Source of the DNA: an uncultured Flaviramulus sp.
Lineage (GTDB): Bacteria > Bacteroidota > Bacteroidia > Flavobacteriales > Flavobacteriaceae
DNA: 64,000 bases
Assembly: GCA_947495125.1 (NCBI GenBank)
Contig: CANLXL010000002.1
Location: 434,001 to 498,000, forward strand
Reading direction: 5' to 3'
Below are positions 5,497 to 5,540 of the stretch, one piece after another. Positions within the stretch are counted from its first letter, which is position 1. Each line of letters begins with the position of its first letter. Under the pieces are notes generated by a model. It saw nothing but the letters and a program-made list of their open reading frames with translations. It made no database searches and had not been told where the DNA came from. Both the position numbers and the translations under genes were made by a program.

Positions 5497-5540
5497 AGAA
5501 ATTAAATGTTATGCAAACCTTTGCATAACATTTAATTTCT
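5497..5540. promoter_or_regulatory. 44-bp perfect palindrome containing LacI-type operator core ATGCAAACCTTTGCAT
   Basis: AGAAATTAAATGTTATGCAAA-CC-TTTGCATAACATTTAATTTCT: 21-nt arms, no mismatch, 2-nt centre; in the divergent intergenic region. Confidence 0.8.

Follow-up and report, generated by a model that had tools for sequence, protein, structure and literature searches.

Within the window, by which we refer to the whole 64-kb stretch of DNA analysed, a gene encoding a LacI-family regulator and a gene encoding a GDPD/alkaline phosphatase fusion are divergently oriented, and the intergenic region that separates them harbors a long perfect palindrome. The regulator displays a LacI HTH and a sugar-binding-type sensor domain. 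The features of the locus are as follows, with the strand given where the feature has one:

3581-5407, minus strand: gene encoding the GDPD/alkaline phosphatase fusion, divergently oriented and a candidate target
5461-5491, minus strand: TTTG-N19-TTGATTTG, a candidate promoter of the phosphatase gene, of the flavobacterial -33/-7 type with a single mismatch to the -7 box
5489-5497: A9 tract; on the minus strand it forms a T9 behind the hairpin and gives a weak terminator-like match
5497-5540: perfect palindrome of 44 bp, its 21-bp arms flanking a central CC
5497-5510: left extension arm AGAAATTAAATGTT, without conservation in relatives
5511-5526: predicted core LacI-family operator ATGCAAACCTTTGCAT, 16 bp, conserved beside lacI and phosphatase orthologs
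5527-5540: right extension arm AACATTTAATTTCT, without conservation in relatives
5717-6745, plus strand: LacI-family regulator, HTH and periplasmic-binding-type sensor domain
6780-6795: ATGCAAACGTTTGCAT, second predicted operator, which precedes the aldolase/iol genes and has no extension
6891-15211, plus strand: myo-inositol catabolic cluster (aldolase, iolB, iolC, iolA-type, iolE-type, iolG, iolD-type TPP enzyme)
19080-19097: degenerate third operator-like site, three mismatches, upstream of a SusC-like gene at 19206

Leftward, beyond the GDPD/alkaline phosphatase gene, lies a gene encoding a protein of the endonuclease/exonuclease/phosphatase family. In the cluster to the right, iolB, iolC and iolG score over the curated cut-offs, and an iolA-type dehydrogenase, the iolE-type gene, the iolD-type TPP enzyme and a sodium:solute symporter are also found. 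In a hand alignment, the regulator of the window displays a Phe in the hinge, near residue 58, where E. coli LacI has Leu56; this Phe is common to the orthologs of the genomes G001 and G007, and most of the more distant orthologs have Leu.

The inverted repeat, AGAAATTAAATGTTATGCAAA-CC-TTTGCATAACATTTAATTTCT, is composed of two arms of 21 nt (5497-5517 and 5520-5540) which are 100% complementary and separated by 2 nt. A preliminary description of this DNA had reported a perfect 44-bp palindrome with a CC centre between divergent phosphatase and lacI genes, in which a 16-bp core is extended by 14 bp on each side, and all of these points were borne out. It is the sole repeat of this kind in the window, the runner-up among the perfect short-loop inverted repeats having arms of 9 bp. 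Given the local composition, perfect pairs of 21 bp are expected by chance about 2e-6 times per window, and the chance of 14 extra pairs past a given core is about 1e-7. The palindrome folds strongly both as DNA (z about -10) and, on the minus strand, as RNA (z = -5.8). No second full-length copy was found in a search of the whole genome, and thus the palindrome is not a dispersed repeat; likewise, the sequence of the arms was found nowhere else among the fetched loci. As a background for repeats, an 860-kb sample of the host genome was used, in which four other perfect short-loop inverted repeats with 21-bp arms are present. All four are terminator-like by sequence, three of them at 75 bp or less from the 3' end of an ORF and the fourth separated by about 290-360 bp from the neighbouring ORFs. 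Among the repeats of this sample whose arms reach 14 bp, only the palindrome at 5497-5540 is located between divergent genes.

Predicted core operator and candidate promoters

The 16-bp core recurs beside lacI orthologs throughout the family, with either CG or CC/GG at its centre, and is also found upstream of the phosphatase orthologs of G007, G378, G219, G019 and G221, preceding such orthologs even where the phosphatase gene does not adjoin lacI. In G007, the core is placed at the identical distance from the phosphatase start (-119) and in the same orientation as in the window. Due to this conservation, the core is taken as the functional part of the palindrome and is predicted to be the binding site of the regulator, in agreement with the LacI-type operator proposed in the preliminary description. 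At the orthologous loci the conserved core is an even palindrome, as expected for LacI-family motifs, which span 16-22 bp (PMC4052901). A central CG is usual but not obligatory in such operators, centres other than CG having been reported for 49 of 1303 regulators, and degenerate ones for 29 (PMC4052901); here the centre is CC, as it is in G007 and in the MAG locus L034. An even 16-bp palindrome beside the regulator and the catabolic genes, in an autoregulatory position, resembles the operators of the IolR group (Ravcheev et al. 2014, PMC4052901), a study in which LacI-family regulators of inositol pathways are described, yet the site differs from these LacI-family operators in its CC/GG rather than CG centre and in a symmetry that reaches 14 bp further on each side.

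The second predicted operator of the window, at 6780-6795, has the central CG. The third site, at 19080-19097, is weak, since shuffled sequences yield about 1.3 such matches by chance. Two more exact cores with a CC/GG centre are found elsewhere in the host genome. The one at C1:889571 (L001) adjoins a lacI paralog of 61% identity, which has a GH29-like gene opposite to it. The one at C1:905692 (L002), about 16 kb from the former, is between glycoside-hydrolase-like and phosphoesterase genes; the two LacI paralogs of this genome may share operators. The conserved core defines a candidate LacI regulon in which, in this flavobacterial family, inositol catabolism would be joined with a glycerophosphodiesterase/alkaline phosphatase fusion.

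Between the palindrome and the phosphatase gene, the candidate promoter at 5461-5491 approaches the flavobacterial -7 box consensus, TAnnTTTG (PMC9723704), and in G007 the same promoter-like arrangement, TTTG-N19-TTGnTTTG, is found with the same spacing and position. If this promoter is real, transcription of the phosphatase gene would start near 5456 and the centre of the operator would be near -63; since the candidate promoter lies between the palindrome and the gene, the hairpin is probably not part of the phosphatase transcript. On the other side, upstream of lacI, the sequence that the host, G001 and G007 have in common covers no more than about 100 bp next to the start codon, suggesting for the lacI promoter, too, a position downstream of the palindrome. 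Based on these consensus matches and on one relative, the palindrome probably resides in untranscribed DNA. The suggestion that it might act as a hairpin in a 5' UTR is therefore disfavoured, both by the promoter-like arrangement shared with G007 downstream of the palindrome and by the conservation on the lacI side being close to the lacI start.

Distribution of the extended symmetry

In G007, whose LacI is 82% identical and whose lacI gene is divergent from the same phosphatase gene, the core and its CC centre are present without the extension. Likewise, L034 (lacI 75%) has the CC centre and a core with two outer mismatches, again without the extension, next to a divergent phosphatase homolog which is homologous in its N-terminal part. 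The flanks of the core in both relatives are asymmetric and unrelated. The homolog of L034 (L034:2285-3214) stops at 309 aa, just into the alkaline-phosphatase part, and is either a truncated gene or the product of a frameshift. The preliminary description had assigned a possible special role to the extended symmetry and had named beforehand its absence in close relatives as an outcome that would speak against such a role; this absence is precisely what G007 and L034 display. In G001, the single genome of the same genus that was compared, no operator was found in the 296 bp upstream of lacI, up to the end of the contig.

At 34 sites of the family with an exact match to the core, 14 flanking positions per side were surveyed. 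At 31 of the 34 sites the flank symmetry is at chance, one site (G114) reaches 7 bp, and the remaining two, namely the palindrome at 5497-5540 and a palindrome in G121, are symmetric over all 14 bp, against an expectation of about 8e-6 sites with 14 of 14 extra pairs. Without these two extremes, flank complementarity has a mean of 0.33 per position and the run lengths fit those of permuted flanks. Such an all-or-nothing distribution is easier to reconcile with a rare event in one step than with a gradual selection for symmetry. A core site outside the list of 34 (L029:3544) displays a 7-bp extension. In a class-level search of 396 genomes, no extended cases were found beyond the host genome and G121, many of the remaining matches being unlike operators. 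In the 450 bp upstream of 80 further lacI homologs, a single extended operator-like palindrome of 34 bp (L049) was found, together with a few terminator-like or unclear repeats. This palindrome of Mucilaginibacter lappiensis (L049:3816-3849) and one of 30 bp in the host genome (C10, L020:2522-2551) are both close upstream of a LacI-family gene and have different cores, ACGCAACCGGTTGCGT and TTGCTTAAACGTTTAAGCAA, respectively.

The palindrome of G121 (L119:1498-1547) is perfect over 50 bp, with arms of 25 bp and the same core, and is placed between a different divergent lacI and an SSF transporter gene. Three congeners of G121 (L143-L145), with LacI proteins 91-92% identical, have the same core and no extension. 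When G121 was compared with G402, the left arm matched at 15 of 18 aligned positions, the right arm at 10 of 17 and the right flank past the arm at 20 of 28, counts which are small but consistent in direction. Assuming one event, in which 17 nt copied as reverse complement take the place of 17 nt with no indel, saves 7 cost units in this comparison, and independent change at a comparable rate reached at least 14 bp in none of 200,000 simulations. The left arm thus looks ancestral-like and the right arm looks like its reverse-complement copy, as in the signature of a template switch.

Origin of the extension and alternative explanations

We consider it probable that the palindrome at 5497-5540 is a functional LacI operator which was enlarged by a lineage-specific template switch, and that its outer arms are probably neutral. 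According to this hypothesis, the core would be the operator of the adjacent IolR-like regulator, which would respond to an inositol-related effector and coordinate the divergent GDPD/alkaline phosphatase gene, lacI itself and the inositol catabolic cluster. With its 7-bp arms, the operator would be a ready seed for template switching: during replication, the nascent strand would fold on the symmetry of the operator, copy one flank so that the other became its reverse complement, and then return to its template, so that the outer 14 bp per side would arise in one step in the host lineage. In accordance with such an origin, the perfect repeat is centred on a shorter pre-existing one, G007 and L034 having the core only and the host the extended form. 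We infer the template switch at 5497-5540, as we do the binding of the regulator, its effector, the promoter positions and the neutrality of the arms, the comparison of relatives backing the switch in G121 only. At 5497-5540 the two arms match G007 at 7 of 14 and 8 of 15 positions, as would random sequence, and copying has about the same cost in either direction; G007 and L034, the nearest relatives, are too diverged to show which arm served as the template.

A role of the extended hairpin as a functional RNA, in which a stem of 20-21 bp followed by T9 on the minus strand would act as an attenuator or terminator before the phosphatase gene, or would stop antisense readthrough from the lacI side, is in our view unlikely. 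The minus strand does carry a terminator-like match at the hairpin and its T-tract, the RNA hairpin is strong, and the host genome contains many perfect long short-loop inverted repeats that resemble terminators. However, the stem is A+T-rich, with G-C pairs at 4 of 20 positions, the terminator scan found one match where 1.1 are expected by chance, and the other terminator-like repeats mostly adjoin gene ends, unlike this one. Moreover, the orthologous position in G007 has neither the hairpin nor the T-tract, and transcripts starting from the promoter-like arrangement common to G007, downstream of the hairpin, would exclude it. The composition of the stem, its location, which is likely to precede the phosphatase start site, and its absence in G007 thus all speak against a terminator. 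We likewise assign a low probability to a selected extension of the operator, by means of extra contacts, of two regulator dimers binding cooperatively or of a cruciform that modulates access. Rare selection would be in line with the two independent perfect extensions, which share the core and the family and are both found in divergent regions adjacent to lacI, and with the partial 7-bp extension in G114; a cruciform is physically possible at the palindrome. Nevertheless, the comparison of genomes gives no support to a regulatory effect of the extension: the sequences of the outer arms differ between the extended cases and ordinary sites show no excess of partial symmetry. Motifs of the LacI family span 16-22 bp (PMC4052901). 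In addition, each arm contains one half-site of the core motif only and no second operator was found within the arms, in disagreement with the earlier proposal that the palindrome may bind two dimers.

Foldback errors can yield perfect inverted repeats, and an artefact of assembly or sequencing might in this way have created an inverted copy at the operator; as the repeat lies inside a contig of 649 kb, the genome is rated 100% complete at 0.23% contamination, and a comparable palindrome exists in another genome (G121), we regard this as very improbable. Perfect inverted repeats are also typical of mobile elements with palindromic ends, but the probability that the palindrome is a remnant of such an element is practically negligible: a conserved operator forms the exact centre of the repeat, and core and start codon are spaced as in G007, so that an insertion on the phosphatase side is disfavoured. 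This origin, like that of a dispersed repeat, was rejected upon the lack of a second full-length copy in the host genome.

Relation to known mutational mechanisms

The E. coli lac operator O1 has a wider, imperfect dyad symmetry beyond its contacted core, and the palindrome described here is similar to O1 in that its symmetry reaches past the core, but differs in being perfect over 44 bp except for the two central bases. Template switching at quasipalindromes, by which inverted repeats are perfected through the folding back and copying of the nascent strand, is established in E. coli (PMC7202029, PMC6357072). As proposed here, a pre-existing inverted repeat there turns longer and more perfect by a single clustered change, and in G121 one arm appears to have been copied from the other. 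In contrast to the E. coli mutations, the seed is here a transcription-factor operator and the product is deduced from a comparison of species rather than from an observed mutation. Long perfect hairpins originating from one template-switch event have been reconstructed in RNA genes (PMC8794818), and these share with the present palindrome a long perfect stem in one lineage which is absent in relatives, although here the stem is in a bacterial promoter region and is probably not transcribed. In a limited literature search, no paper on template switching at bacterial transcription-factor sites was found.

The locus illustrates how a striking promoter palindrome may consist of an ordinary operator and a scar left by mutation. 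Two apparently independent cases are at hand in one family, one of them with near relatives that show the state before the event. If operators generally seed template switching, long promoter palindromes should not count as evidence of function before relatives are checked. A further hypothesis, which we hold to be rather improbable, is that operators occupied by LacI repressors are hotspots of template switching, in which the palindromic seed and the bound repressor, acting as a replication obstacle, would recurrently give rise to long perfect palindromes in one step; if true, it would shape promoter evolution. Several of the terminator-like repeats in the sample of the host genome are themselves unusually long and perfect, with perfect arms of 17-21 bp and loops of 0-4 nt, for instance at L160:15316-15357, L146:11360-11401 and L152:1070-1115, and template switching could be maintaining these too.
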